Origin: Thermodesulfobacterium geofontis
GTDB taxonomy: Bacteria > Desulfobacterota > Thermodesulfobacteria > Thermodesulfobacteriales > Thermodesulfobacteriaceae
Assembly: GCA_002877985.1 (NCBI GenBank)
Contig: PNIK01000062.1
Span: forward strand, 1-35,993
Reading direction: 5' to 3'
DNA: 35,993 nucleotides
In this document: positions 13,906 to 35,977 of the stretch, one piece after another
Layout of the letters: every line of letters starts with the position of its first letter
Numbering within the stretch: position 1 is the stretch's first letter
The notes under the pieces: generated by a model
Told to the model about the DNA's origin: nothing
Seen by the model: only the letters and a program-made list of their open reading frames with translations
Databases searched by the model: none
Translations under genes and position numbers: made by a program

Positions 13906-14526
13906 ATGATTAAAGTCAAAATCTGCGGGCTTAAAAAGAAAGAGGATGTTGAATTTTTAAACAATTTTCCAGTAGATTATATGGGATTTATTATGTACCC
14001 AAAATCTCCAAGATATGTAAATAATGAATTAAAAGAGCTTCTTTCTTTGGTAAAAAAAGCTAAAAAAGTGGTTGTTTTTGTAAATCCCTCTTATGAGGAG
14101 GTTAAAAATGCTCTTGATTTAGGTGCAGATTTTATTCAACTTCACGGAGAGGAGACTCCTGAATTTGGAGAAAAAATAGGCTTTAAAAAGATCATAAAAG
14201 CCTTTAGAGTAAAAGAAAACAGAATTGATTTTAAGGAATTATCTTTTTGGAAAAATGCTTATGCCATATTACTTGATACCTATGTAAAGGGAATCCTGGG
14301 TGGAACAGGAAAAACTTTTAACTGGGATATAGCAAAGAGGATTGTTTCTTCAGGTTATAAAGTTTTTTTAGCAGGTGGTATAGATCCTGACAATGTTTTA
14401 AATGCAGTAAAAGAAGTTTCTCCTTATGCAATTGATATAGCATCAGGGGTTGAACTTTATCCAGGGAAAAAAGATCCAGAAAAAATAAATAGACTTTTTA
14501 ATAGTTTAAAATTGATATCCAGCTGA
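13906..14526 (+). CDS. trpF: Phosphoribosylanthranilate isomerase
   Basis: VKICGLKKKEDV, GFIMYPKSPRYV, QLHGEE, LLDTYVKGILGGTGKTFNW, AGGIDPDNV, DIASGVELYPGKKD. Confidence 0.96.
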   Translation: MIKVKICGLKKKEDVEFLNNFPVDYMGFIMYPKSPRYVNNELKELLSLVKKAKKVVVFVNPSYEEVKNALDLGADFIQLHGEETPEFGEKIGFKKIIKAFRVKENRIDFKELSFWKNAYAILLDTYVKGILGGTGKTFNWDIAKRIVSSGYKVFLAGGIDPDNVLNAVKEVSPYAIDIASGVELYPGKKDPEKINRLFNSLKLISS

Positions 14527-15696
14527 AGCTACAGAAACTATAGAACCTTTACCAAAAGGGATCGCCTCTTGATAAAAAATCTGATAATCTCCTTTAGCAT
14601 TCATTTTATTTAAAAGAAGATTGAGTAAATAAAGACAGGAAAGACCACATATTTTCATAGGAGCAAGATTTTTTGCCTCATTTAAAAATTCTTCTGAGGT
14701 CCCATTAAAAGTAAGTTCTAATAATTTTTTATCTGTTTCCAATACTTTCTGAATATGAACTTCTGATACCTCAAAAGGATCTCCATATCTCGGACCTAAA
14801 TGACAAAAATCTATTCCCAGAACAAGGTAAGTTCTCTCATCAAACAATTCAGATAGTGCGGATATAAATTTTTCTAACAGTTCTTTAGTTTTATTTTCAA
14901 AAAATATAATTAAGGGTCCTACTAAGATTGGAAGAACAACAAATTCATCTTTAAGAATATGATGTAAGAATAGAATTTGAAATTCAATGGAATGCTCAAG
15001 TTTATGGGCTATATGATTTGGAAATACTTCAACCTGTTTAGATTTAGTAAGATATAATAAACCTCCTCGGTCATTTTTAATTACTCCAAAGGGGGTTGCA
15101 ATATCCTTAGTGAGAATAGACCAGGGAAGATCTAAATGATGTCCTACACCAAAAATAATTACTCTTGAACCAGAGGGTATTTTAAATCTATTATAACTTT
15201 CAGCAAAAGCTTTTGCTCCAGCTCTAAGGTCAATATGGGGTGCAATTAAAATCTTTGGTGGTTTTGAAGAATCGGGATTGCATAATTTTAGAATATCCTC
15301 TATAAAGAATTGAGCTTCGGAGGCTGAAAGAGGATAAGCTTGATTTGCATAAGCCATAGGTCTTAATGGCAAAGATAACCACTTTTCATAGGCTTTATTT
15401 TTTATTTCTTCAAAATTTTTACTCCACAAAAGACCCTTTTCATCAAGAAAATTGACAATTTTGATTATCTCTTCTAAAGGAATAATTTCTCCGAATCTTT
15501 TTGTGGCTTCAGCTTGAAGATCTCTTAAATCGTGTTTTCCATCCATTAAAGGAAGTAAAAAAACTATACTTTGCGGAACAACAACGATTTCTTCAATAAT
15601 ACCGATAGGGTCTCTCAATAAGCATACAGGTTTCCCTTCATGTTTAGTAGGAATAATATCTACATATCTTAAAATAGGTTTAAAAGTAGCATCCAT
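14506..15696 (-). CDS. Memo-like (AmmeMemoRadiSam protein B) family protein with a ~120-aa N-terminal extension
   Basis: Memo core PHIDLRAGAKAFAESYNRF, GVGHHL, HKLEHSIEFQILFLHHIL, GIDFCHLGPRYGDPF, CGLSCLYLLNLLL. Extra N-terminal domain LLPLMDGKHDLRDLQAEATKRFG...FLDEKGLL. Confidence 0.85.
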   Translation of the reverse strand: MDATFKPILRYVDIIPTKHEGKPVCLLRDPIGIIEEIVVVPQSIVFLLPLMDGKHDLRDLQAEATKRFGEIIPLEEIIKIVNFLDEKGLLWSKNFEEIKNKAYEKWLSLPLRPMAYANQAYPLSASEAQFFIEDILKLCNPDSSKPPKILIAPHIDLRAGAKAFAESYNRFKIPSGSRVIIFGVGHHLDLPWSILTKDIATPFGVIKNDRGGLLYLTKSKQVEVFPNHIAHKLEHSIEFQILFLHHILKDEFVVLPILVGPLIIFFENKTKELLEKFISALSELFDERTYLVLGIDFCHLGPRYGDPFEVSEVHIQKVLETDKKLLELTFNGTSEEFLNEAKNLAPMKICGLSCLYLLNLLLNKMNAKGDYQIFYQEAIPFGKGSIVSVASAGYQF

Positions 15697-16481
15697 TATA
15701 CTATTTCTTCTCCAAAATCTTCAGCAGTCAAGCTCTGGCAGGCTTCTTTTACCCTCTCAACTGCAGTATAAAATTCTTCTTCAATGGTTCTTACTCTTAT
15801 ACCATAAGCCTTTTGCACTGCCTTTCTTACTATCTCTCCTTTCATCAAAGCATTTTCCCATCCAAATTCAGCATATTTTTCATTTACCACTCTATTTAAA
15901 TCTATCAATGCAGAAGCCCTTTTTCTTCTTTCTTCAGCAGCCTCATTTAAAGGCATAGCCAAAAAATTGTCAATCTTTGAAACAAAGCTTTCATAAAAAC
16001 TGGCAGGAAATCTGGAATCAAATTCTTCTATAGCAAATCCAAAGGTAATAAATATAGGATCTTTAAAATAGGTAAAAAGGTCTTCCTCTATCATGCTGGG
16101 ATCTTCTCTCAATAAGTCCTGATAAAGCCTATAGGCTTGTTTAGATTTTTCTTTTACATTAGGTGGCTTTTCTGTATTGAATTCAAGGATATAGTGATAA
16201 AGACTTTCATCAACTACAATAGCAAGAATTTCTCTTGCTCCCAGATCTCTCATAGCTTCAAGCCTATGCATTCCGTCAACTACATAATATTTTCCATCCT
16301 TAGGCACAACTACTATTGGGGTTAAGAATCCGAGTTTTTCTATTGCCATCTCTAAATGTTTTTTCAAACTTTCAGAAATATCTCTCTGAAAAGGAGGCCT
16401 GTATATTTCATCAATATTAAAAAGAACTAACTTCATAGGTTGTTTTTTTACAGGATCTTCAAAGGAGGCAATTTCAACCAT
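15696..16481 (-). CDS. ParB/Srx-fold domain protein with a helical C-terminal region
   Basis: LGFLTPIVVVPKDGKYYVVDGMHRLEAMRDLGAREILAIVVD matches the ParB/sulfiredoxin N-terminal pattern. No obvious canonical ParB HTH. Confidence 0.75.
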   Translation of the reverse strand: MVEIASFEDPVKKQPMKLVLFNIDEIYRPPFQRDISESLKKHLEMAIEKLGFLTPIVVVPKDGKYYVVDGMHRLEAMRDLGAREILAIVVDESLYHYILEFNTEKPPNVKEKSKQAYRLYQDLLREDPSMIEEDLFTYFKDPIFITFGFAIEEFDSRFPASFYESFVSKIDNFLAMPLNEAAEERRKRASALIDLNRVVNEKYAEFGWENALMKGEIVRKAVQKAYGIRVRTIEEEFYTAVERVKEACQSLTAEDFGEEIV

Positions 16482-16492
16482 ATTACCACCCC

Positions 16493-17611
16493 CTAATCAG
16501 CGTTTCTTCTTAGAAAAGTTGGTATATCTAAAATTTCCTCGTCAAATGTATTTAAAACATTTTGTTTTTGTTTTTCAGTTTTCTTCTTTAATCCTTCATT
16601 CATTTGTATGATCTTTTCTTTTCTTTCTTTTTCTTTAGCTTTTTCAAGCCCTGTAGCAATAACAGTAACCCTTAAAGAATCTTCCAGATTTTCATCAAAA
16701 ACAACACCCCAATATACTTTTGCTTCTGGATGCAATTCTTTAGCAATTGTTCCTGTAATTACTTGTGTTTCGTGAATGGTCAAAGTATCAGGATGGACAC
16801 TTATATTTAACAATAATCCTTTAGCTCCTGAAATAGAAATATCTTCTAAAAGGGGGCTATAAATAGCCATTTGGGTTGCTATTTCTGCTCTTTCTTCACC
16901 TCTTGCTTCTCCCATACCCATCAAAGCTGTACCTCCACTTTCACTCATTAATGCTTTAACATCTGCAAAATCAAGGTTTATATAACCTGGAGAAAGAATT
17001 AAATCAGAAATACCTCTTACTGCATAATATAATACATCATCCGCTTTTTTAAACATATCTGCAAGCCTTTCTTGAGGAGAACCTAAAGTAAGAAGTTTAT
17101 CATTGGGTATAGTGATAAGGGTATCTACGTATTTTTTTAATTCTTCCAATCCTTGTTCTGCTATTTTCATTCTAAATCTACCTTCAAAAGAGAAAGGTTT
17201 AGTAACCACAGCAACAGTTAAAATACCTAAATCTTTACAAATACTTGCTATTACAGGAGCAGCTCCGGTTCCTGTTCCACCTCCCATCCCTGCTGCAATA
17301 AAAACCATATCTGCATCCTTCAAAATATCTCTTATTTCTTTTTCACTTTCCTCAGCCGCTTGTTTTCCAATTTCAGGCTTCCCCCCAGCTCCCAAACCTT
17401 TAGTTAATTTCTTACCTAATTGTATTTTAATTGGTGCAGGGTTAATATCTAAAACCCTATAATCTGTATTTGCTGCAATAAACTCAACTCCTTGCAATTT
17501 GTTTCTTATCATATTGGCTACCGCATTTCCTCCTGCTCCTCCAACACCTATTACTTTTATATTAGGTTGAACTTTAGTTTCTTCATCTAATAATTCAAAA
17601 GAAATACCCAT
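16493..17611 (-). CDS. ftsZ: Cell division GTPase FtsZ
   Basis: GVGGAGGNAVANMI, AAGMGGGTGTGAAPVIA tubulin signature, C-terminal conserved peptide DIPTFLRRNAD. Confidence 0.99.
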   Translation of the reverse strand: MGISFELLDEETKVQPNIKVIGVGGAGGNAVANMIRNKLQGVEFIAANTDYRVLDINPAPIKIQLGKKLTKGLGAGGKPEIGKQAAEESEKEIRDILKDADMVFIAAGMGGGTGTGAAPVIASICKDLGILTVAVVTKPFSFEGRFRMKIAEQGLEELKKYVDTLITIPNDKLLTLGSPQERLADMFKKADDVLYYAVRGISDLILSPGYINLDFADVKALMSESGGTALMGMGEARGEERAEIATQMAIYSPLLEDISISGAKGLLLNISVHPDTLTIHETQVITGTIAKELHPEAKVYWGVVFDENLEDSLRVTVIATGLEKAKEKERKEKIIQMNEGLKKKTEKQKQNVLNTFDEEILDIPTFLRRNAD

Positions 17612-17612
17612 T

Positions 17613-18854
17613 TTAGCCCCCTTTTATTAATTTAAATAAACTTTTTCTTATTTTTTCAATTATTCCTTCTTTCCTTTCTTCTTTTATCTTTTCCTTTAAA
17701 TTGTAAATATAGGAAAGCATTCCTACAGAGGTAGCAAATTGGGGATGATAAATTTCTTCAGTAAGTCCAGGAAGTTGTAAAGGATAGCCAATTCTTGCTG
17801 GTAAATCTAACAATTGTTCAGCTAAATAAATCATACCTGGAAGAAGTGCAGAACCACCGGTTATCACTACACCGCTACCAAGTTTTGATTTAATATCAAG
17901 AATATCTTCATTTTCAAACACTTTTTCTTTTAATTCTCTTTCAATTAACTCAAAAAGTTCTTTTATTCTTAATTCCAATATTTCTGCTAAAATCTTTTTA
18001 CTTATTCTCCTTGAGGGACGATTTCCTATTCCAAGAACCTCAATAAAATCTTCCTCATCTACAAGTTCCCTTACGCAAACTCCCTGTTCAATTTTTATTT
18101 TTTCTGCTTCTTTTTTTGAGGTTCTTAATCCAACAGCCAAATCATTAGTAAGCAGTTCTCCTCCTACAGGAAGAGAAAACACATACCTTAAAACATTATC
18201 CCAGTAAATTGCTACATCTGTTGTTCCTCCACCGAAATCAATCAAAATAACTCCTAATTCTTTTTCTTCTGGAGTTAGAACCCCTTCCCCAGAAGCCAAT
18301 CCTTGAAAAATGACACCATCCACTTCTAAATCCAGATTTTCAAAACATCTTAGCAGATTTTGAAGATTAGATCTGTTGCAGGTAATTAGCTGAACATGAG
18401 CTTCAAGTCTTACTCCTGACATCCCTACAGGTTGAAGTATACCTCTTGCCTGATCAACTATAAATTCCTGAGGAATTACATGTAAAATTACTCTGTCCTG
18501 TGGAAGTTCTATTGTTTGAGCAGAATAAAGTACTTCCTCAACTTCAGAAGGAGTAACCACCTTTTCTTTTAAAGCTACCACACCAGAACTGAAAACTGTT
18601 TTTATGTGGCTTCCAGCAATACTAACATAAATACTTTCTACAGGAACCTTTGCTTGAGCCTGAGCCTTTTCTATAGCATTTTTAATACTCTGGGTAGCTT
18701 CATCTATATTTATTATAGTTCCCTTTTTAAGACCCTTTGAAGGAACTATTCCTAATCCCGTAACCCATAATTTCTCTTCCTTTTCTTCACCAATGAGAGC
18801 ACATATCTTGGTAGTTCCCACATCTACAACAAGTATGCCTTTTTCCCTTTCCAT
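17613..18854 (-). CDS. ftsA: Cell division protein FtsA
   Basis: VVDVGTTKICALIGE, IDFGGGTTDVAIY, VVITGGSALLPG, C-terminal amphipathic helix IIEKIRKSLFKLIKG. Confidence 0.98.
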   Translation of the reverse strand: MEREKGILVVDVGTTKICALIGEEKEEKLWVTGLGIVPSKGLKKGTIINIDEATQSIKNAIEKAQAQAKVPVESIYVSIAGSHIKTVFSSGVVALKEKVVTPSEVEEVLYSAQTIELPQDRVILHVIPQEFIVDQARGILQPVGMSGVRLEAHVQLITCNRSNLQNLLRCFENLDLEVDGVIFQGLASGEGVLTPEEKELGVILIDFGGGTTDVAIYWDNVLRYVFSLPVGGELLTNDLAVGLRTSKKEAEKIKIEQGVCVRELVDEEDFIEVLGIGNRPSRRISKKILAEILELRIKELFELIERELKEKVFENEDILDIKSKLGSGVVITGGSALLPGMIYLAEQLLDLPARIGYPLQLPGLTEEIYHPQFATSVGMLSYIYNLKEKIKEERKEGIIEKIRKSLFKLIKGG

Positions 18855-18857
18855 AAA

Positions 18858-19598
18858 CTAACCTCTAAATTTTATTAAAGCTGAACCTAATGGATAATCT
18901 AATCTAATAAGTTCCACTTTTTCAATAAGATCTCTTTCGTATAAATAAGCCATTATTTTATCCAAATTTTTGTAAAAATATGTCCAATCTTTTTCAGAAA
19001 TAAGAGGAAAATAAATTTTTATGTTATTCTTAGTAATAAAAACGATTTTATCCTCTTCTAAACTAATTTTAGCTAAGTTTTCATAAACAGGTAAATAATT
19101 TTTTTGATTTTTTAACCAATCTAAAAAGTTTAAAAATTTATCTTTAAATTCTTCATTTTTTATTTCAATTACAGGATAAAATTGATAGTCTTCAGGCAAG
19201 ATAGTATCTATAATAACTCCCTTTTTATCTATAAGATAACCTTTGTTATTTTGTGTAATGATTGCAAGAGGTTCTCTTTCTTTTACCTTTATTTCAAGTG
19301 TACTAGGAAGGTGTCTCACTATAATTACCTCTTCAATCTTGGGATTGAGAAGAATTTTTTCTTTTATCTTTTTAACTGGTATAGAAAAAAGCCTTTCTCC
19401 ACCTCTTAATCCTGTTAGTTCTATGATTTCTTTTTCTGTAATTTTTTTATTATTTAATACTTTTATTTCTCTCAATACAAAACAATTTGTAAAATAGAGC
19501 AAATAAATTATTCCAGAAAAGAAAAATATTATGCTCGCAGATAACCAGAGATATTTATTTTTAATTGAATTTATAATTTTTTTAATTATAAAGAACAT
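18858..19598 (-). CDS. ftsQ: Cell division protein FtsQ (POTRA/FtsQ)
   Basis: Single N-terminal TM, POTRA region FVLREIKVLNNKKITEKEIIELTGLRGGERLF, RHLPSTLEIKVKEREPLAII. Sits between murB and ftsA. Confidence 0.9.
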   Translation of the reverse strand: MFFIIKKIINSIKNKYLWLSASIIFFFSGIIYLLYFTNCFVLREIKVLNNKKITEKEIIELTGLRGGERLFSIPVKKIKEKILLNPKIEEVIIVRHLPSTLEIKVKEREPLAIITQNNKGYLIDKKGVIIDTILPEDYQFYPVIEIKNEEFKDKFLNFLDWLKNQKNYLPVYENLAKISLEEDKIVFITKNNIKIYFPLISEKDWTYFYKNLDKIMAYLYERDLIEKVELIRLDYPLGSALIKFRG

Positions 19599-20515
19599 CC
19601 CAAGAAGTTTACCTCCGGTTCAAGTTTTATTCCAAATTTTAAAAATACTTTTTCCTGAACTAATTTTATAAGTTGTAAAACATCCTCTGCTTTTGCATCT
19701 CCAAGATTAACTATAAAATTGGCATGTTTTTCAGAAATTTTAGCAGATCCTATTTGATAACCCTTTAAATTACAAGCTTCTATTAATGCACCAGCATAAT
19801 AAGTAGGCGGATTTTTAAAAACAGAACCAAAGGTTTTTTCAAAAAGGGGTTGAGTTTTTTTTCTTTTTTCAAGGTATTTTTTTAAAAGCTCCTTTACTCT
19901 TTCCTTTTCCATCCTTTCCATTTCAAGTTCTGTACTTATAACGATGCCATTTTCTTTAAATTTTCTATATTCCCAAAGAGATTCCTCAGATTTTATATTT
20001 TTTATCTTTCCGTTTTTATAAATTCTTATGTTTTTTACTAATTGAGATATAGTATTTCCAAAGGCTCCTGCATTCATTTTTATAGCTCCGCCTAAGGTCG
20101 CAGGAATTCCTCCTAAAAATTCAAGACCTCCAAACCCCTTTCTTATCCCCATCCCTATGATTTCATTAATTCTTGTACCTGCGAGTATTTTTAAAATTAT
20201 CTTTTTTTCATTTTCTTCTGTTATTTCTATTCCTTTAAATTTACAAAAGTTTATAACCACTCCTTCAAACCCCTTATCTGAAACAAGGAGCTTACTTCCT
20301 CCACCAAGAACAAAAAAGGGGATTTCAGAATTTTCGAGGAATTTCAGAATTTTTAGTAAAGACTTTTCCTTTTCTGGGAAAATCATTCTTTTACAAGGTC
20401 CTCCTATTTTAATACTTGTATAAGGAGCTAAGGGCTCATCAACTTTAAAAATTATATTTAGTTCCTCTAATTTTTTATCCAAATCTTTAAGCCACATTTT
20501 TTGATCTTTCCTCAT
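19586..20515 (-). CDS. murB: UDP-N-acetylenolpyruvoylglucosamine reductase
   Basis: APYTSIKIGGPCKRMIFP, VLGGGSKLLVSD, GLEFLGGIPATLGGAIKMNAGAFG, SEKHANFIVNLG. Confidence 0.97.
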   Translation of the reverse strand: MRKDQKMWLKDLDKKLEELNIIFKVDEPLAPYTSIKIGGPCKRMIFPEKEKSLLKILKFLENSEIPFFVLGGGSKLLVSDKGFEGVVINFCKFKGIEITEENEKKIILKILAGTRINEIIGMGIRKGFGGLEFLGGIPATLGGAIKMNAGAFGNTISQLVKNIRIYKNGKIKNIKSEESLWEYRKFKENGIVISTELEMERMEKERVKELLKKYLEKRKKTQPLFEKTFGSVFKNPPTYYAGALIEACNLKGYQIGSAKISEKHANFIVNLGDAKAEDVLQLIKLVQEKVFLKFGIKLEPEVNFLGCSL

Positions 20516-21881
20516 TTTCTTTTATAAGGATCATTTTATGTAATTTATAAATATTACCTGCTCCCATAGTTAAAATTATCTGATTCTCTCCTCCTATTTT
20601 TTCAAGAAGGTTTAAAATTTCTTCAAAAGACTCTCCATAAAAAGTAAGATTGGGAGTTCTTAAATTCTTAATACTTTCAAAAAAGGTAAAGCCTGAAATT
20701 CCGGGAATGGGTTTTTCACTGGCAGGATAAATATCTGTTAAAATTAAAATTTCAGGCTCCTTTAAGACAAATAAAAATTCATCCCATAAAGCTTTCATTC
20801 TGGTATAGCGGTGTGGTTGAAAAATAAGTATCAGCTTTTTATCTGGGTAAACCTCTTTTACAGTTGAGAGGGTGGCTCTAATTTCAGTAGGATGATGAGC
20901 ATAATCATCAAGTAAAATTGCCCCTTTCCAAATTCCCTTAAAATCAAGTCTTCTTTCTACACCTCTAAAATTTTCCAATATTTTTATTACTTCAGTAATG
21001 GGAAGATTTAAAATTAAAGAAACTCCTATAGCTGCCAAAGCATTTAAAGCATTGTGTTTCCCAGGAACAGAAAGTTGAAATGTCCCGAGGAGCTCATCTA
21101 AATAATAAACTTCAACCCTTGGATAAGCAGAATCTTTAACAATTTTTCCTATAAGGTGATTATTTTCCGAAAATCCATAAAGCAAAAAAGGACCTGAGAT
21201 ATCCTGTAGTATTTCCCTTACTCCCTGATCATCTCCACATAAAATTACCTTTCCATTAGGGGAACATCTTTTTATAAAATTTATAAATGCTCTTTTGACC
21301 GCATTAAAATCTGCATAAAAATCAAGATGTTCCTTATCAATATTAGTAATAACCTCTATATAGGGGCTATAACAGAGAAAGGAACCATCACTTTCATCTG
21401 CTTCAGCAACCAGAAATTCTCTTTCTCCAAGAAGTGAATGGGTCTTAAAATTATTTATTATTCCTCCTACTATCACAGTTGGATTTTTCTCAAGTTTTAT
21501 TAAAACCTCAGAGATCATAGAAGTGGTAGTGGTTTTACCATGGGAGCCAGCAACAACAATACTTTTAGGATAAGCATTCATCACCTCTGATAGCATCTGA
21601 GCTCTTGGAATTACCCATATTCCCAATTCTTTTGCTTTTAAAAGTTCGGGATTTTCCGGAGGTATCGCTGAAGAATAAACTACAATATCAATTGAATCTA
21701 AGTGAGAAGGAGAATGTTCATAATATACTTTTATTCCCTTTTTTTCCAATAATTTTGTGTATTTGCTTTTCGCAATATCACATCCACTTATCTCATATCC
21801 CAAGGAATGCATTATTAAAGCAAGTCCACTCATTCCTACTCCACCAATTCCAATAAAATGAATTCTTTTTTTCTCAGACAT
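20487..21881 (-). CDS. murC: UDP-N-acetylmuramate--L-alanine ligase
   Basis: HFIGIGGVGMSGLALIMHSLGYEISGCD, GSHGKTTTTSMI, EADESDGSF, NIDKEHLDFY, DDYAHHPTEIRATL. Confidence 0.97.
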   Translation of the reverse strand: MSEKKRIHFIGIGGVGMSGLALIMHSLGYEISGCDIAKSKYTKLLEKKGIKVYYEHSPSHLDSIDIVVYSSAIPPENPELLKAKELGIWVIPRAQMLSEVMNAYPKSIVVAGSHGKTTTTSMISEVLIKLEKNPTVIVGGIINNFKTHSLLGEREFLVAEADESDGSFLCYSPYIEVITNIDKEHLDFYADFNAVKRAFINFIKRCSPNGKVILCGDDQGVREILQDISGPFLLYGFSENNHLIGKIVKDSAYPRVEVYYLDELLGTFQLSVPGKHNALNALAAIGVSLILNLPITEVIKILENFRGVERRLDFKGIWKGAILLDDYAHHPTEIRATLSTVKEVYPDKKLILIFQPHRYTRMKALWDEFLFVLKEPEILILTDIYPASEKPIPGISGFTFFESIKNLRTPNLTFYGESFEEILNLLEKIGGENQIILTMGAGNIYKLHKMILIKENEERSKNVA

Positions 21882-22956
21882 TTTTTACTAATCCCTCCAG
21901 CTCTTCTATAATTATTTTTCTTGAATCTTTAATAAAAAAACTTTTCATAACCTGAGACATACTTCTTAATTTTTCTTTATTTTCAAGTAGGGATTTTATT
22001 TCTTTTAATACTAATTCTGGAGTTGCTTCTTTTTGCCTTATTAAAACAGCTCCTCCTTTTTGAGCCACAATTCTTGCATTCTTTTCCTGATGATTTTTAG
22101 TAGCATAAGGGAAAGGTATAAAGATAGCAGGAAGGCCTACTGCAAAAAGTTCGGCAAGAGTTGTTGCTCCGCATCTTCCCAAAAATAAGTCAACCTGAGA
22201 ATAGACCCAGCTCATATCTTCTATAAAAGGAAAAACCTTTAAACGGGACACATTTTCTTCTTTTATCAAGTTTTGATATTCATTTTTAACCTTTTCAAAA
22301 TCATCTAAACCTGTTTGGTGAATAATTAAAAGATCCTTATATTCATCTAAAAGCCGTGGAACTATCCTTAGGGCAAGCTCATTTATAAATCTTGCTCCCA
22401 AACTTCCTCCTAAAATTAATAAACCCTTTCCTGAATATTCTCTAGGTTTTAAATTTAGTATATCTTCTCTTACAGGATTTCCTGAAAAAATTACTTTTTT
22501 CTCAGGAAAATATTTTTTACTTTCTTCAATACTCACAAAAATTCTATCTACCATATAACTTAGCAATTTATTTGCTAATCCAGGTTCTATGTTTTGCTCA
22601 TGAAGACCAATTTTTTTGTTTCTAAATTTTCCTACTAACACTATAGGAAAAGAAATATAACCCCCTGTAGCAAAAATAATATGGGGATCTAAATCTTTAA
22701 TAAGTTTATAGGCTTCATTTATAGCTTTTATCATTTTAATAAAAGCTCTAATTTTATCTTTTAAAGCTCTTCCAATAAACCCCTCTACATCTAATCTATA
22801 AACTTTAAAGGGTTTATTTTTTAAAATAACCTCCTCTATTCTTCTTGTACCAGAAACAAAATATACTTCTCTTTGCATTTTCAATAATTCTTGAGCAATA
22901 GCTACACCAGGTATAATATGTCCTCCTGTCCCTCCAGCAACAATAAGCCATCTCAA
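21874..22956 (-). CDS. murG: Lipid II synthase glycosyltransferase MurG (TTG start)
   Basis: VAGGTGGHIIPGVAIA, HEQNIEPGLANKLL, GNPVREDIL, GGSLGARFIN, GRCGATTLAELFAVGLPAIFIPFPYATKNHQEKNA. Confidence 0.98.
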   Translation of the reverse strand: MRWLIVAGGTGGHIIPGVAIAQELLKMQREVYFVSGTRRIEEVILKNKPFKVYRLDVEGFIGRALKDKIRAFIKMIKAINEAYKLIKDLDPHIIFATGGYISFPIVLVGKFRNKKIGLHEQNIEPGLANKLLSYMVDRIFVSIEESKKYFPEKKVIFSGNPVREDILNLKPREYSGKGLLILGGSLGARFINELALRIVPRLLDEYKDLLIIHQTGLDDFEKVKNEYQNLIKEENVSRLKVFPFIEDMSWVYSQVDLFLGRCGATTLAELFAVGLPAIFIPFPYATKNHQEKNARIVAQKGGAVLIRQKEATPELVLKEIKSLLENKEKLRSMSQVMKSFFIKDSRKIIIEELEGLVKNV

Positions 22957-24356
22957 TGGAATATCCCCTCTTTTTTTTCTTTAAAATGCAAAGGAGCTTC
23001 TCTTATAACTAATCTTCTAAAAACTTCTCCTCTTTCTTTATAATCAGCAAATTGATCAAAACTTGAACAGGCAGGAGAAAGAAGCACTATGTCTCCTGGT
23101 TTAGCTAATTTAATAGCTAAAAGGGTTGCGGAACTGAGTGTTTCACTCATATATGTTTCAGTAATTCCTTCTAATTCTTCAGCCATAATGAAGCGTGATT
23201 CTCCCATTAGAATTAAAATTTTAACTTTTTCTTTAATGTAAGGAATTAAAGGACTATAAGAAGCTCCTTTATGTTTACCTCCAAGAATAAGAATTATAGA
23301 ATTTGGAAGACTTTTCAATGCTTGTAAAGTAGCGGACACATTGGTGGCCTTAGAATCATTTATAAAATAAACTCCTCCAAATTCTCCTATATATTCAAGT
23401 CTATGTGGAAATCCTCTAAACTCCTTTATTAATCTTTTTACACTTTCTTTAGTTGCAGAAAGAAGCCTTGCTCCTAAACTTGCTACCATAAAATTAACTT
23501 TGTTATGAATTCCAAGAAGTTTAAAACCAAAAAAGGAATAAAATTCCTTTTCTTTGAGATTAAGAATAAAACCATCTTCAGAGGAAATACTACTTGGCTT
23601 TAAATAGGCTACCGCATCAATATTTTCTTTTTCATCAAAAAACAAAACCTTACTTTTTATCAATTTTTTAAACTTTTCAAACCAAGGCTCTCCAAAAGGT
23701 AAAATAGCATAGTGATTTTCTTTTTGATATTCAAAGAGTCTGTATTTATAGTAGGCGTATTCTTCATAAGAGGAGTATCTTTCTAAATGATCGGGACTTA
23801 TATTTAGAAGAATCCCCACCTTCGGAGAAAAGGTACAAATATTTTCCAGCTGAAAACTTGAAACTTCAAGCACAATCTTATCTACTAAAACATTTGAGAC
23901 TGCAAGTTCGGACAAGGGTATCCCATAATTTCCTCCTGTAAAAACTTTATATTCTGAGAGTTTAAGAAGTTCTGAAACCATGGCAGTAGTTGTTGTTTTA
24001 CCGTTTGTACCGGTTATAGCTATAATTTCTTTTTTATTTTTCAAAAATTGCCAAGCAAGTTCAAGTTCACTTAAAACTGGTATACCTTTTTTAATACAAT
24101 CTTTATAAACTTCTCTTGGAACACCCGGGCTTGTTACAATGAGATCTGCTGAAAGAAGAGTTTCTTTTTTATGCCCCCCTCCCTCAAAATAGACTCCCTG
24201 TGATTTAAAAGAAGTTAAAATATCTGGAGGTAGTTCATCCAATTCTCTTATTTCAGAAACTATAACTTCGGCTCCTTGTTTGAGAAGAAGTTTGGTTACC
24301 GCTTTCCCACTTTTCCCAAAACCTAAAACTACTACTTTTTTATTTTTTAGTTCCAT
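22953..24356 (-). CDS. murD: UDP-N-acetylmuramoylalanine--D-glutamate ligase
   Basis: VVLGFGKSGKAVTKLL, SPGVPRE, ITGTNGKTTTTAMVSELL, LNISPDHLERY, FINDSKATNVSATLQALKS. Confidence 0.97.
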   Translation of the reverse strand: MELKNKKVVVLGFGKSGKAVTKLLLKQGAEVIVSEIRELDELPPDILTSFKSQGVYFEGGGHKKETLLSADLIVTSPGVPREVYKDCIKKGIPVLSELELAWQFLKNKKEIIAITGTNGKTTTTAMVSELLKLSEYKVFTGGNYGIPLSELAVSNVLVDKIVLEVSSFQLENICTFSPKVGILLNISPDHLERYSSYEEYAYYKYRLFEYQKENHYAILPFGEPWFEKFKKLIKSKVLFFDEKENIDAVAYLKPSSISSEDGFILNLKEKEFYSFFGFKLLGIHNKVNFMVASLGARLLSATKESVKRLIKEFRGFPHRLEYIGEFGGVYFINDSKATNVSATLQALKSLPNSIILILGGKHKGASYSPLIPYIKEKVKILILMGESRFIMAEELEGITETYMSETLSSATLLAIKLAKPGDIVLLSPACSSFDQFADYKERGEVFRRLVIREAPLHFKEKKEGIFH

Positions 24357-25439: not shown

Positions 25440-26845
25440 TAACTTAACTCCTTAAGTAATCTTTCTACAATTCTTTCCATTTTTAGAGCCCTTGATCCTT
25501 TTATCAAAATAATTGCTTTTTCTTTTATAATTTCTTTAAAAGAGAAATTTTCCAAAAATTCTTCTACGCTATTAAAAATCTTACAATTTTTATCTTGATT
25601 TTTTTCCTTAAATCCCTCTTCATAACTTTTAGCCATCTCACCCGTAAAAATGGCAAAATCAACAATTTCAGCAACAAGTCCTCCTATTTCTCTATGAAGT
25701 TTTTCTGATTCATTTCCCAATTCTTTCATATCTCCTAAAATAACAACCTTTTTCTTATTTCTTGAAATTTCCTTTAAATACTCTAAAGCTGCTTTAGTAG
25801 AACCAGGATTTGCATTATAGGTATCGTCTATTATAAAAATGTTTTTCTTTTCCAAAATTTTAAATCTTTTATAAAGAGGAATTTCTTTTTCTATAAGAGG
25901 GACAATTTCTTTTAAGTTAAGTCCCAAAGAAATAGCGGAACAAAGACCCGCTAAGAGATTTAAAAGATTGTGTTTCCCTATATTTTCTATTTCCAGGGGA
26001 TAGGTTTTCTCTTTAAAAACGATTACACCCTTTATTTTGTTTTCAGAAAATACCAAATCTTTAAAAGAAAGATCCGCTTTTTTATCAAATCCAAAAGAAA
26101 TTTTATTCTGTGGAAAACTTTCTGCTCTTTTTCTTAAAATTTCTTGATCAAAATTGTAAATGATGGTTCCCTTTTCCCAAGTATTTTTAAATAAACTTGT
26201 TTTTTCTTCTAAAACCCCCTCTATAGAATTTAGTCCTTCTAAATGGGAGGGATATATAGAGGTTATAACTGAGATGTGAGGTTTTACAATTTGAGAAAGT
26301 CTTTCTATTTCTCCCTTTTGATTTGTTCCAAGCTCAAGAATTGCTACTTCTGTATCCTCTTTTATAGAAAGAAGTGAAAGAGGTACCCCTATTAAATTAT
26401 TATAATTAGCTTGATTTTTGGCTGTTTTAAAAAATCTGGAGATTATATTATAAGTTAACTCTTTAGTAGTTGTCTTTCCGCATGAACCTGTTATAGCTAC
26501 AAAGGTAGAATTAAGTTTATCTCTCCAGTAACTTGCCAAATCTCCTAAAGCTTTAAGAGTATCCTTTACTAAAATGACAGAAATGGTTTTAGGGATTTCT
26601 TCAACTCTAAACCCCTTTGGAAAATAGGAAATAACCATACCTTTAGCTCCTTTTTCAATGGCATCTTTATAAAATTCATGTCCATCAAATTTTTCTCCTT
26701 TTAAAGCAAAGAAAAGATAACCGGGTTTTATAATCCTTGTATCTGTTGAAATACCTTTAAAAGAAATGCCCATATCTCCATTAATAAGAATCCCTGAAAC
26801 TGCTTTTATTACGCTCTCTGTAGAAAGTTCAATTTCTACATTCAT
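25439..26845 (-). CDS. murF: UDP-MurNAc-tripeptide--D-Ala-D-Ala ligase
   Basis: STDTRIIKPGYLFFALKGEKFDGHEF, ITGSCGKTTTKEL, NNLIGVPLSLL, ELGTNQKGEI, IIDDTYNANPGSTKAAL. Confidence 0.97.
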   Translation of the reverse strand: MNVEIELSTESVIKAVSGILINGDMGISFKGISTDTRIIKPGYLFFALKGEKFDGHEFYKDAIEKGAKGMVISYFPKGFRVEEIPKTISVILVKDTLKALGDLASYWRDKLNSTFVAITGSCGKTTTKELTYNIISRFFKTAKNQANYNNLIGVPLSLLSIKEDTEVAILELGTNQKGEIERLSQIVKPHISVITSIYPSHLEGLNSIEGVLEEKTSLFKNTWEKGTIIYNFDQEILRKRAESFPQNKISFGFDKKADLSFKDLVFSENKIKGVIVFKEKTYPLEIENIGKHNLLNLLAGLCSAISLGLNLKEIVPLIEKEIPLYKRFKILEKKNIFIIDDTYNANPGSTKAALEYLKEISRNKKKVVILGDMKELGNESEKLHREIGGLVAEIVDFAIFTGEMAKSYEEGFKEKNQDKNCKIFNSVEEFLENFSFKEIIKEKAIILIKGSRALKMERIVERLLKELS

Positions 26846-28335
26846 AAGGTTTTAAGGTTTTTTATAATTTTTAAAATTTCTTCCTGATCAGAAAAGGGAT
26901 ATCTTTTACCTTTAATTTCTTGATAGGTTTCGTGTCCCTTTCCAGCAACCAAAAGCACATCTCCTTTTTGAAGATTTTTAATGCCAAATTCAAGAGCTTC
27001 TCTTCTATCAGGAATAATTCTATAAGGTTTAGAAGAGTTTATTCCTTTTTTTATATCTTCAATAATTTTCAATGGATCTTCAAATCTTGGATTATCTGAG
27101 GTTAAGATTATTTCATCAGCAAAAAGACTTGCCACTTTTCCCATAAGAGGCCTTTTACCTTTATCTCTGTTTCCTCCGCAGCCAAAAATAACAATAAGTT
27201 TGTTTTCTTTAAAGGTTTTCAAACTTTTTAAAGCTGAAGCCAAAGCTTCTGGTGTATGAGCGTAATCTACAAATATTTTAGCACCTTTAAATTCAGCAAC
27301 CAATTCAAGTCTTCCAATAGGATTTTTAAGGTTTTGAATGGACCCTAAAAGGTCTTCAATCTTATAATTCATAGCTAAGAGAATCCCTAAAGTAGTTGCT
27401 AAATTTTTAGCCTGATAATCTCCCAAAAGTTGGGTTGGGATTTCATATTCTTTATCTTTTACTTCAATTTTTAAGGTAGACCCCCTTTTTTTGTTAAATA
27501 TTTCACATTTAAATTCTTCATTATTTACAAAAATTGGAGATAAATGTTTTAACTCCTCAGCCAATCTTTTTCCATATTCATTTTCAAGAGAAACAACCAC
27601 TTTTGCATTTGGTTTTAGATATTGGGTAAAAAGTTTTTTCTTTGCCTGATAATAATCCTCCATATCTTTGTGATAATCCAAATGATCCCTTGAAAGATTA
27701 GTAAAAGCTGTAACATCAAAGAAAAGCCCCAGTAATCTATCCTGATGAAGAGCATGTGAAGAAACCTCAATTACACAAGCTTTAAAACCTTTATCTACCA
27801 TTTCTTTCAATAAGCTTGAAACAGTTAGAATTGAAGGTGTTGTTTCAAGGGCAGGAATAATTCTATCGGTTTCATAAAAAAGGGTTCCTATGTATCCACA
27901 TTTAACTCCCAATCGATTTAAAATGTTTTTGGTAAAATAGCTCACTGAGGTTTTTCCATTTGTTCCAGTAACACCGATAAGAAATAATTTTTTTTGAGGA
28001 TTTTCATAAAAGTTTAAAGAAAGGGTAGATAAAGCTTTTTTGACATCTTTAACCTGAATTTGAATAGTTCCTGGATAAGTTTCAGAAGGATTTATATCAC
28101 TTTCTCTCACAATAATAAGGGCTCCATTTTTCAAAGCCTCTTCAATAAAAGCCTCACCATTTAAATTTGTTCCCTTTCTTGCAACAAAAATAAATCCGTC
28201 TTTTATTTCTTTAGAATTTTCAGAAATACCCTTTATTTTTAAACATTTATAAGGCCCAAAATTTTCTATAAGTTTACTTCCATAATAGGCTTTTATAATC
28301 TCCAAATTTTGGATAAGTTCTTCTAAGGGCTTCAT
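26842..28335 (-). CDS. murE: UDP-N-acetylmuramoyl-L-alanyl-D-glutamate--2,6-diaminopimelate ligase
   Basis: VTGTNGKTSVSYF, EVSSHALHQDRL, FTNLSRDHLDYHKDMEDYYQAKKKLF, VDYAHTPEALASAL, TSDNPRFEDP, DAP-ligase-type DNPR motif. Confidence 0.97.
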   Translation of the reverse strand: MKPLEELIQNLEIIKAYYGSKLIENFGPYKCLKIKGISENSKEIKDGFIFVARKGTNLNGEAFIEEALKNGALIIVRESDINPSETYPGTIQIQVKDVKKALSTLSLNFYENPQKKLFLIGVTGTNGKTSVSYFTKNILNRLGVKCGYIGTLFYETDRIIPALETTPSILTVSSLLKEMVDKGFKACVIEVSSHALHQDRLLGLFFDVTAFTNLSRDHLDYHKDMEDYYQAKKKLFTQYLKPNAKVVVSLENEYGKRLAEELKHLSPIFVNNEEFKCEIFNKKRGSTLKIEVKDKEYEIPTQLLGDYQAKNLATTLGILLAMNYKIEDLLGSIQNLKNPIGRLELVAEFKGAKIFVDYAHTPEALASALKSLKTFKENKLIVIFGCGGNRDKGKRPLMGKVASLFADEIILTSDNPRFEDPLKIIEDIKKGINSSKPYRIIPDRREALEFGIKNLQKGDVLLVAGKGHETYQEIKGKRYPFSDQEEILKIIKNLKTL

Positions 28336-29333
28336 AGCATAGAAATTATATAGTTTATAATTTTTTTATTTTTGCTTAATAAATCTTTCTCCTGAGGATT
28401 AAAAGCAAAAGAGGAAAGAATTAATTTATTATTTTTAAAAGCAACTGTAATAAAAATTTTACCTAAATCATAAATATACTCCCTTTTTTCAAAGATCTCT
28501 AAATTTGGTTCACATACCTTAGTTTTTTGAGGCAAAATAGTAGGAATTACTGACTGATTGCAAGCCTTTTCCATATACCATTTAGCAAGATGCCAGAGAT
28601 TTATTTTTATTGTATCCATTTCTTTAAGCATTAAATTTTCTCCCAAAACCCAATTAAAATCTTTTAATTCAGAAGGATGAATACCAAAAAGGTTTAAAGG
28701 ATAATAATTATCAAAAAGTCTCAAATTTTCGCTTTCTAAATAACCAAGCAATTCACCTGTTTCAAGATCAAAAACTGCTATTCCAAAACCTGGAAGATTT
28801 GATTCATAAATTATATTGTAAATCTTTTTTTCTAAATTTAAATCAATAGATAAAACAAGAGGATTCCCTATACGCAAATGCTCGTCAAAGATTTTTTCTA
28901 ATCCAGACACTCCGTATCCATTAAAGGTTTCTCCCACAAGAAATTTTAAATAGGGTTGCAAAACCTTTCTTTTAAAGGTTTTTTCAATTATCACATTTTT
29001 CTCTTTTTTAAGTTTTTCAACCTCTTCTAAACTAAGATCCTCTGAAAGAAGAATTATTCCTTTTTTGGAGAGATTTATAGTGGAACTCAAATACTTTTTA
29101 AGAAATGATATATCTGATGAATCAAAAAGAGCATTATCTTTAAGCAGATAATAAGCTTTATAATTTTCTAAAGAGACTGCGATGGGATTAAAATTTCTAT
29201 CAAATATATAACCCCTTTTAACTCTATATTCAGGAACTTTCCCAGTTACCCTTTCTGCTGAGAAATTAATTATTAAAATTATCAAAAATAGAGATGCACT
29301 CAAAAGTAATAAAAGTTTTTGCTTTTTTTTCAT
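28332..29333 (-). CDS. FtsI-position protein: FtsI/PBP3-like N-terminal module with a shortened, degenerate transpeptidase region (putative pseudo-transpeptidase)
   Basis: Lies between ftsL and murE. One N-terminal TM, RGYIFDRNFNPIAVS (cf. RGxIxDRxGxxLAvS), GVSGLEKIFDEHL (cf. GxxGLExxxdxxL), LVLSIDLNLEKKIY, GFGIAVFDLETGELLGY. Only 333 aa; no SxN; KTG appears as KTK. Stop overlaps the murE ATG. Confidence 0.8.
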   Translation of the reverse strand: MKKKQKLLLLLSASLFLIILIINFSAERVTGKVPEYRVKRGYIFDRNFNPIAVSLENYKAYYLLKDNALFDSSDISFLKKYLSSTINLSKKGIILLSEDLSLEEVEKLKKEKNVIIEKTFKRKVLQPYLKFLVGETFNGYGVSGLEKIFDEHLRIGNPLVLSIDLNLEKKIYNIIYESNLPGFGIAVFDLETGELLGYLESENLRLFDNYYPLNLFGIHPSELKDFNWVLGENLMLKEMDTIKINLWHLAKWYMEKACNQSVIPTILPQKTKVCEPNLEIFEKREYIYDLGKIFITVAFKNNKLILSSFAFNPQEKDLLSKNKKIINYIISML

Positions 29334-29681
29334 TTATTCTAACCTAAGTAAATCTTCTTTTTGAGGTGGATAAAGTCCTAAAACTTTTGCTTTTTCTAAA
29401 ACAACTTCTTTAGATGTTAAATACTGGTATTCTTTTTTTAGACTTTGATTCTCATGTAATAAAGATTTTTTTTCTACTTTTAATTTTATTAAAAGATAGG
29501 TATTATAAGCAGTAGCAACGCTAAAAACAAAAATTAAAATCCCAAGAAAAAAAAGAAAACTATCAACAATAAACTCCTTTATCCAATCTTTAATTGAGAT
29601 AGCTTCTTCTTTGTTTTTAGATTTTTTGTTAGTATGTGTATACTCTACGGTGGGTCTATAAATCGTAGCTTTATTATTCAT
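29334..29681 (-). CDS. ftsL: FtsL-like cell division protein
   Basis: Small protein with one TM, then a coiled coil (KLKVEKKSLLHENQSLKKEYQYL) and EKAKVLGLYPPQKEDLLRL tail. Sits between rsmH and the ftsI position. Confidence 0.8.
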   Translation of the reverse strand: MNNKATIYRPTVEYTHTNKKSKNKEEAISIKDWIKEFIVDSFLFFLGILIFVFSVATAYNTYLLIKLKVEKKSLLHENQSLKKEYQYLTSKEVVLEKAKVLGLYPPQKEDLLRLE

Positions 29682-34519: not shown

Positions 34520-35977
34520 ATGAAGGTTTATTTAATTGGGATTGGCGGAATAGGGATGTGCGGAGTTGCTGGAATTTTAAAGGAGTCTGGTTTTGAGGTT
34601 TATGGTTCAGAAAAGAAAATTCCCTACCCTCCTTCCTCTTTAATTCTTAAAAAACTAAATATCCCTCTTTACAAACCTGACTCAGAAAATATCAAAAAAA
34701 TTAAACCCGATGCAGTTATAGTTGGAAATATTGCTAAAAGCGATGATCAAGAGGTTTTAATTTCTCAAAGTCTTGGAATCCCCCTTTATTCCTTTCCTTC
34801 TTTTTTAGATAAATTTATATTAAAAGATAAAAAGGTTTTTCTCTGTGCAGGAACCCATGGGAAAACAACAGTTACAGCCCTTTTAAGCTATACTCTTGAG
34901 TATCTCGGTTTTGATCCTACCTATCTTGTAGGTGGAGTTTTAAAACATACAGAACTCAACTATAGAAAAGGAGAAGGAGATTTTGCGGTTATAGAAGGAG
35001 ATGAGTATCCTGCTTCTTTCTTTGATAGAGAACCTAAATTTCTTTATTATCATCCCTTTGCAGTTATTCTAACAAGCCTTGAGTATGACCATGCAGATGT
35101 CTATCCTGATATGGAAAGTTTAAAAGAGGTATTTAAAAAACTAATAAAATCTGTGCCTAAAGAGGGTATTATAGTATACAATTACGATGATAAAAATTTA
35201 AGAGAAGTAATAGAAAGTGCAAATCCAAATGTAAGAATAATTTCTTATGGTAAAAATTCTAAAGCAGATTTTGTTTTGCTTAAAAGTGAAACTACATTTG
35301 AGGATCTGGTATTTAAAAATCATGTTATAACAAATACACCTTTCAAAAATTTAGAGTTTTTTTTCTCTATTCCAGGAGAATACAATGCTCTTAATGCTCT
35401 TTCTGTGATTGCTTTGCTTTATAGCTTGGATTTGTTAAAAATGGATTGGAAAGAAGCTTTTAAAACATTCCCAGGGGTTAAAAGAAGACAGGAGATTGTA
35501 TGGGCTGATGAAAAACTTATCATAGTTGATGATTTTGCCCATCACCCAACTGCTGTTAAAAATACACTTGAAGAATTAAAAAAAGCTATTAAGCCTGAAA
35601 AGACAGTAGCTATCTTTGAACCAAGAACCAATTCCAGCAAAAGAAAAATTTTTCAAGAAGATTATGTAAAAAGTTTAAGTCTTGCAGATGAGATTTATCT
35701 GAAAATTCCCCCAGGTTTAGAAAATATTCCAGAGCGTGAAAGAATTGACATAAATTACATATTAGAATCTTTAAAAAATCTGGAGAAAAAAGTTTTTTTT
35801 CTTGAAAACAATCTGGACAATAATTTAAGTTTTTATAAAATCAAAAAAGAAAAAACTCTTGTAGTATTTATGTCAAGTGCCTATTTTAAGGAATTGGGAA
35901 AATTAAAGAACTTAATTTTAAAACCTAAAATAAAAAGGAGTCAACTATCAGAAAATAGGATAAAGAAAAAATGTTAA
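34520..35977 (+). CDS. mpl: Mpl-like UDP-N-acetylmuramate:L-alanyl-gamma-D-glutamyl-meso-diaminopimelate ligase
   Basis: YLIGIGGIGMCGVAGILKESGFEVYGSEKKIPYPPSSLIL, GTHGKTTVTALLSY, EGDEYPASFFDREPKFLYYHP, LEYDHADVYPDMESL, DDFAHHPTAVKNTL. Confidence 0.88.
   Translation: MKVYLIGIGGIGMCGVAGILKESGFEVYGSEKKIPYPPSSLILKKLNIPLYKPDSENIKKIKPDAVIVGNIAKSDDQEVLISQSLGIPLYSFPSFLDKFILKDKKVFLCAGTHGKTTVTALLSYTLEYLGFDPTYLVGGVLKHTELNYRKGEGDFAVIEGDEYPASFFDREPKFLYYHPFAVILTSLEYDHADVYPDMESLKEVFKKLIKSVPKEGIIVYNYDDKNLREVIESANPNVRIISYGKNSKADFVLLKSETTFEDLVFKNHVITNTPFKNLEFFFSIPGEYNALNALSVIALLYSLDLLKMDWKEAFKTFPGVKRRQEIVWADEKLIIVDDFAHHPTAVKNTLEELKKAIKPEKTVAIFEPRTNSSKRKIFQEDYVKSLSLADEIYLKIPPGLENIPERERIDINYILESLKNLEKKVFFLENNLDNNLSFYKIKKEKTLVVFMSSAYFKELGKLKNLILKPKIKRSQLSENRIKKKC

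Follow-up and report, generated by a model that had tools for sequence, protein, structure and literature searches.

The FtsW-FtsI pair as universally essential for septal peptidoglycan synthesis in walled bacteria is a view both stated and challenged in the literature (PMC10693644). Division of C. difficile is driven by the class A PBP1, and the class B PBP3 helps non-catalytically (PMC10693644, PMC12539705). A structural division role separable from catalysis was described for PBP 2B of B. subtilis (PMC5656894), and PBP1 of S. aureus serves division in ways that go beyond catalysis (PMC9426605). In published divisome structures and models, the anchor loop (E. coli R207-D225) and pivot (L53-R60) of FtsI face FtsW, and its neck/head faces FtsL (PMC7614612, PMC10390529). 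For the Thermodesulfobacteria, one sentence of an earlier paper mentions that the dcw cluster has lost ftsW (PMC8871954).

Here, a stretch of 35,993 nucleotides from Thermodesulfobacterium geofontis (assembly GCA_002877985.1, contig PNIK01000062.1; hereafter the window) was analyzed together with related genomes of its order and phylum. The dcw cluster of the window is arranged as mraZ-rsmH-ftsL-ftsI(reduced)-murE-murF-mraY-murD-murG-murC-murB-ftsQ-ftsA-ftsZ.

The ftsI slot in the window and across the order

The ORF at the ftsI slot (28332-29333, minus strand) encodes a protein of 333 aa and lies between an ftsL-like ORF and murE. Its start ATG is directly downstream of the ftsL-like gene (29334-29681, minus strand, 115 aa), which was assigned by position together with a PF04999 score of 22.8 bits, just under the cut-off of 22.9. 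Its TGA overlaps the ATG of murE (26842-28335, minus strand) as ATGA, indicating that no DNA is missing at the ftsI slot. The Pfam profile search of the 333-aa protein showed a match to PBP_dimer (PF03717; 26 bits, cut-off 24.4) and none to Transpeptidase (PF00905), and no NCBIfam profile matched. The PBP_dimer match was stronger in longer relatives (52.7 bits in G025, the longest form), and PF00905 was detected only as fragments in the proteins of G025 and family f3.

The division genes downstream, all on the minus strand, are ftsQ (18858-19598; POTRA_1 55 bits, FtsQ_DivIB_C 21 bits), ftsA (17613-18854; conserved dcw position and a weak MreB_Mbl match, as expected for FtsA) and ftsZ (16493-17611; conserved dcw position, with identity from the sequence). 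Past ftsZ, the interval 14506-16481 (minus strand) encodes two proteins, one of 261 aa with a ParB_N domain and one of 396 aa that is Memo/AmmeMemoRadiSam-B-like. ORFs of similar size follow ftsZ in those loci of genera g1, g2 and g6 that extend that far, and the two proteins could possibly be a division-linked pair. The window also encodes a second MurC/Mpl-like ligase of 485 aa (34520-35977, plus strand) besides murC at 20487-21881, and this ligase scored under both equivalog cut-offs (289 vs 335 bits for murC and 268 vs 389 bits for mpl).

The search of 41 related genomes with the window protein identified homologues in 15/15 genomes of the genus as well as in genera g2 and g6, and the complete ORFs in the genus are 291-340 aa. 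The dcw locus was read in 32 order members (the window and 31 others), and all 32 carry a reduced FtsI of 291-522 aa, as compared with 593-670 aa for outgroup FtsI of the same phylum. The length follows family and genus, from 522 aa in family f2 (G025) to 449-474 aa in f3, 370-392 aa in genera g3-g5 of f1 and 291-340 aa in g1, g2 and g6 of f1. The g3-g5 proteins keep a PASTA domain and little of the second half of the pedestal. The graded lengths (522, ~450, ~380 and ~330 aa) amount to a natural deletion analysis of FtsI.

An assembly error or a gene split in a draft genome could also give a short ORF, and the genome of the window (G000) is a 107-contig draft in which mrdA is split over two contigs. 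Against this explanation, the reduced ORF is also present in closed one-contig genomes (G005, G011, G014, G018, G019, G025 and G027) and in the isolates T. hydrogeniphilum, T. thermophilum and T. hveragerdense, which together with Caldimicrobium thiodismutans are among the public-record loci. Frameshift and misassembly fail because the reduced ORF occurs in all 32 order loci, several closed genomes included, and this explanation is all but excluded.

The original prediction, which was made from the window sequence alone, had described a miniature FtsI-like ORF that is not an obvious frameshift remnant and leaves no room for missing sequence, and both statements held. All the motifs that it quoted were found, with LVLSIDLN from residue 159, GIAVFDLETGELL from residue 184, KTK at residue 270 and the others at the positions given below. 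A full-length FtsI at this locus in close relatives would have refuted it and was observed in 0/32 order members. The original prediction was silent on the minus strand, the empty ftsW slot, the genome-wide loss of FtsW and the spread beyond the order.

Active site, retained parts and selection

For the motif analysis, the 32 order members were aligned with five controls, E. coli K-12 FtsI and four outgroup FtsI. The controls have the Ser of SxxK, the Ser of SxN and the Lys of KTG in 5/5 cases each. In the order members, Ser was found at the SxxK column in 2/32 and Lys at the KTG column in 1/32, and all 32 have a gap at the SxN column (SxN Ser, 0/32). The region corresponding to E. coli FtsI 316-365, from just past the SxxK tetrad through SxN, has an occupancy of 0.00 in every order group, showing that the helical lobe of ~50 residues bearing SxxK and SxN is deleted; the KTG strand is also gone. 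G025 carries SETFPLKPVLDPFL in place of the TDTFEPGSTFKPIL of the others and has lost the KTG strand. Since even this longest form lacks the motif and the KTG strand, the inactivation is inferred to be older than the divergence of the three families.

An alternative explanation is that the protein is an active enzyme with a relocated site, a divergent transpeptidase or carboxypeptidase in which, for example, SELK serves as SxxK. It is supported by an SxxK-like tetrad in the window protein and by the KTK string of the same protein. However, the SELK tetrad (residues 221-224; 28662-28673, minus strand) is not conserved, its columns varying within the genus as SELK, SEIK, TEIK, NEIK, KNLT, RGVA, EEVS or a gap, with AKIK also among the readings in relatives. 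SELK was thus rejected as a displaced SxxK. Moreover, no SxxK, SxN or KTG column is common to most of the 32 members and the SxxK-SxN lobe is deleted, leaving a relocated site very unlikely. Five sequences have a KTG at alignment column 302, which was also considered and rejected, as it resembles the LKTGEL strand and not the active-site KTG. That the reduced FtsI is non-catalytic is well supported, on the basis of sequence and predicted fold and without beta-lactam binding data.

The structure model of the reduced FtsI, built from 14 sequences (mean pLDDT 86.9), predicted a TM helix, a pedestal of reduced size and a compact beta-core flanked by helices. Division-type or related class B PBPs made up all of the 50 best Foldseek matches of this model in the PDB (E 6e-14 to 2e-12, TMq 0.45-0.62). 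These matches include PBP3 of P. aeruginosa, E. coli and Y. pestis, PBP1 of S. aureus and SpoVD of C. difficile, and the best match was PBP3/FtsI with E about 1e-13.

The retained parts, all encoded on the minus strand, begin with the N-terminal TM helix (residues 2-25; 29259-29330) placed by the structure model, whose column occupancy is 0.96 in short forms. It is followed by the neck strand RGYIFDRNFNPIAV (residues 40-53; 29175-29216), which corresponds to RGMITDRSGRPLAV of E. coli FtsI, fits the pattern RGxIxDRxxxPLAV and has an occupancy of 1.00 in all groups (E. coli 70-85); KRG, D45 and R46 of this strand are invariant in A1. GVSGLEKIFDEHL (residues 141-153; 28875-28913) was aligned with GIEGVEKSFDKWL of E. 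coli, and GxxGLEKxFD is kept in g1, g2 and g6. R167 is kept in 18/18 short forms. The structure model places the remnant of the transpeptidase core, consisting of the first helix and strands b1-b2, at residues 165-200 (GIAVFDLETGELLGYLE; 28734-28841), and a predicted helix at residues 246-258 (28560-28598) matches the VTPLQLARVY helix of FtsI (VTPLQLARVYATI). The remnant strands b3-b5, located by model and alignment at residues 285-310 (28404-28481), are without a KTG motif.

By homology to the published structures and models (PMC7614612, PMC10390529), and without FtsL-binding data, the neck strand of the window protein is assigned to the side of the pedestal that faces FtsL. The E. coli model also has a C-terminal strand paired with FtsL, and this strand is largely unaligned in short forms. 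On the side facing FtsW, the anchor loop expected after GVSGLEKIFDEHL is deleted in the window protein, and the FtsW-contact loop (E. coli 206-232) has an occupancy of 0.18-0.30 in the order vs 1.00 in the outgroups. The FtsW-facing pivot is largely or wholly deleted in the order. The loss of FtsW-facing parts alongside FtsW is the most telling pattern in these data, and its meaning is inferred.

The pairwise dN/dS of the reduced ftsI (Nei-Gojobori method, nine species pairs) is 0.08-0.22, as compared with values of up to 0.28 in neighboring mur and fts genes, and ftsL is similar to the reduced ftsI. Several pairs have dS >1, so that single values are rough. The reduced ftsI is under purifying selection in the order. 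These values bear on the possibility of a decaying pseudogene, in which FtsI became dispensable after the loss of FtsW and is eroding. The stepwise shortening from 522 through ~450 and ~380 to ~330 aa and the retention of different parts by different families would be consistent with such decay. On the other hand, the frame is open in 32/32 order members and in two further genomes of the phylum (G120 and G094), the gene always sits between ftsL and murE in the operon, the predicted fold is compact and of high confidence, and dN/dS is like that of neighboring genes. Decay is largely refuted by dN/dS and remains an unlikely explanation.

The original prediction of a non-catalytic or radically reduced FtsI thus held, as the catalytic triad and lobe are lost, the predicted fold is FtsI-like and selection is purifying. 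Its placement of SELK about where SxxK would be did not hold for SELK as SxxK, and its proposal that the protein is kept as a divisome scaffold remains an inference.

The single SEDS gene and the septal synthase

In the window, murD (22953-24356, minus strand) and murG (21874-22956, minus strand) overlap by 4 nt, and the ftsW expected downstream of murD is absent. The same interval lacks ftsW in 29/29 order loci that span it, the window included. One SEDS gene per genome was found in 43/43 order genomes (in two pieces at contig ends in G013), and no second SEDS gene was detected in these 43 genomes. FtsW is thus lost in the order.

The SEDS gene of the order adjoins mrdA, encoding PBP2, wherever its context was read. 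The arrangement in G005 is mreC-mreD-mrdA-rodA followed by ATP synthase genes, and the same order extends across two contigs in G000. The two draft contigs over which mrdA of G000 is split are G000:C35 (L089) and G000:C56 (L088). The SEDS partner scores 644 bits for the pbp2_mrdA equivalog, above the cut-off of 455 bits. The SEDS protein itself scores 257 for rodA vs 196 for ftsW, both under the cut-off. In the SEDS tree, G025 clusters with RodA, and f1/f3 form a long branch apart from the FtsW and RodA clades. The retained SEDS protein is read as RodA, not FtsW, from its mrdA/mreC/mreD context; the tree placement of f1/f3 is not confident owing to long branches.

MreB and a class A PBP were present in 19/19 genomes checked, some of which also encode a monofunctional glycosyltransferase. 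FtsB-like (DivIC) matches were found in 18/19 genomes and SPOR proteins in 19/19. A weak third PF00905 match of f1 genomes (G000:C26, 360 aa) was considered as a third class B PBP and rejected. It carries S-x-x-K, SSN and KTG and looks like a DacA-type carboxypeptidase, as judged by sequence only without a family search.

The explanation that we consider likely is that FtsI of this FtsW-less lineage is a non-catalytic pseudoenzyme acting as an FtsQLB-bound division scaffold; the docking on FtsL, the scaffold role and the septal enzyme are inferred. The reduced FtsI would keep its membrane anchor, FtsL-facing neck and transpeptidase beta-core, serve the FtsZ-ring divisome as a structural subunit docked on FtsL of FtsQLB, and recruit or regulate other peptidoglycan synthases. 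The septal polymer may then come from the class A PBP (PBP1a), from the sole SEDS/class B pair, RodA-PBP2, or from both. PBP1a, which is about as likely to be the septal enzyme as not, is favored over RodA-PBP2 because the SEDS-contacting parts of FtsI were those deleted and because C. difficile, without FtsW/FtsI, divides with the class A PBP1 (PMC10693644, PMC12539705). A point against the scaffold is that retained parts differ between lineages, with PASTA in g3-g5 and a TM helix plus PASTA without PBP_dimer in G094, and therefore one docking surface cannot explain every case. The poor alignment of the C-terminal FtsL-pairing strand in short forms and the uncertain tree placement of the f1/f3 RodA also count against this explanation.

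A sub-case of this explanation is that the reduced FtsI is a non-catalytic partner and activator of RodA, with RodA-PBP2 serving both elongation and division. In its favor, RodA is the sole SEDS protein and has diverged 1.4-2.2x as much as PBP2 in f1/f3 (L006-L030, L088), as compared with ~0.97 in outgroups. Against it, the FtsW-touching elements (pivot and anchor loop) are those deleted, and the acceleration of RodA is weak (ratio 1.0-1.1) in the RodA-only G025, f20, f51 and f61, within a range of 1.0-1.5 in RodA-only families other than f1/f3. The weak acceleration in several RodA-only lineages indicates that acceleration did not simply accompany the loss of FtsW. RodA-PBP2 as the septal pair, and FtsI as its activator, are tentative possibilities that we each judge rather more likely to be wrong than right.

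Other families of the phylum and known systems

Outside the order, 113 genomes of the phylum were sampled. Of these, 22 have one SEDS gene and one has none, and a single SEDS gene was thus ruled out as specific to the order. By its neighboring genes, the SEDS gene retained is the mrdA-linked one in 16 of the 22 single-SEDS genomes and ftsW in the other six. These six (L190-L194, L209) show the opposite state, with FtsW kept and RodA not found.

The dcw loci were located in two of the 16 RodA-only genomes, G120 and G094, sampled in 20-kb pieces. G120 (f51, one contig) has no ftsW and encodes a 535-aa FtsI with PBP_dimer, a fragment only of Transpeptidase (profile 124-191) and no recognizable motifs. 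At the ftsI slot of G094 (f26; L289:7092-7856, minus strand), a 254-aa ORF consists of a TM helix, a short remnant and PASTA, without PBP_dimer, and is the most reduced ftsI-slot ORF seen. The ftsW slot of G094 between murD and murG (L289:1107-1892, minus strand) encodes a 261-aa polytopic membrane protein with no Pfam match, which may be a degenerate FtsW or a replacement.

RodA of G025 groups (support 100/98) with the RodA-only families f17, f20, f29, f45, f51, f61 and f63, and the SEDS proteins of f1/f3 and f26/f50 are on long branches in the RodA-only tree. One loss of FtsW for all RodA-only genomes is likely and, given the long branches, not proven. A bolder reading, which could equally well prove right or wrong, is that FtsW was lost and FtsI inactivated in one ancient event in a common ancestor of the Thermodesulfobacteria and other families of the phylum, leaving FtsI as an obligate pseudoenzyme through which FtsQLB would drive a class A PBP or RodA-PBP2 in septum formation. 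If true, a broad FtsZ-containing clade would have a divisome without its own SEDS/class B pair.

In an order that has FtsZ, FtsA, FtsQ, FtsL and MreB, plus at least two further families, FtsW is gone and the active site of FtsI is lost, and these FtsZ-containing bacteria must build the dividing wall by a non-textbook route. Natural evolution has here separated the structural role of FtsI from catalysis, with selection on FtsI seen in the order. The synthase that builds the septum without FtsWI, and the surface of FtsI that matters to FtsQLB, become testable.

The reduced FtsI resembles FtsI/PBP3 in its position between ftsL and murE, the N-terminal TM helix, the PBP_dimer neck motif, GxxGLEKxFD, the beta-core and the best PDB match. 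It differs in lacking SxxK, SxN and KTG, in the deletion of the 50-residue lobe and the FtsW-contact loop, in its length of 333 aa vs about 590-670 aa, and in its occurrence in a genome without FtsW. The report of ftsW loss from the dcw cluster (PMC8871954) concerns this lineage and the gene found missing here, and in its relevant passages neither a genome-wide absence of FtsW nor a degeneration of FtsI is mentioned. No description of a naturally inactivated FtsI in Thermodesulfobacteria was found in the open-access literature searched, which did not cover subscription papers or preprints. What is new here is the natural, lineage-wide conversion of FtsI into a selected pseudoenzyme together with the loss of FtsW.

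The divisome of C. difficile is similar in having no canonical FtsW/FtsI pair, in the presence of a class A PBP and in the ability of a class B PBP to support division non-catalytically (PMC10693644, PMC12539705). However, C. difficile has a full-length enzyme as its class B PBP and retains the dcw-encoded SpoVD/SpoVE for sporulation, whereas in the order the sequence of FtsI itself has lost catalysis and no gene occupies the ftsW slot. For PBP 2B of B. subtilis, the separation of structure from catalysis was obtained with an engineered point mutant whose catalysis is taken over by PBP 3, whereas the loss in FtsI of the order is natural, ancient and large-scale.
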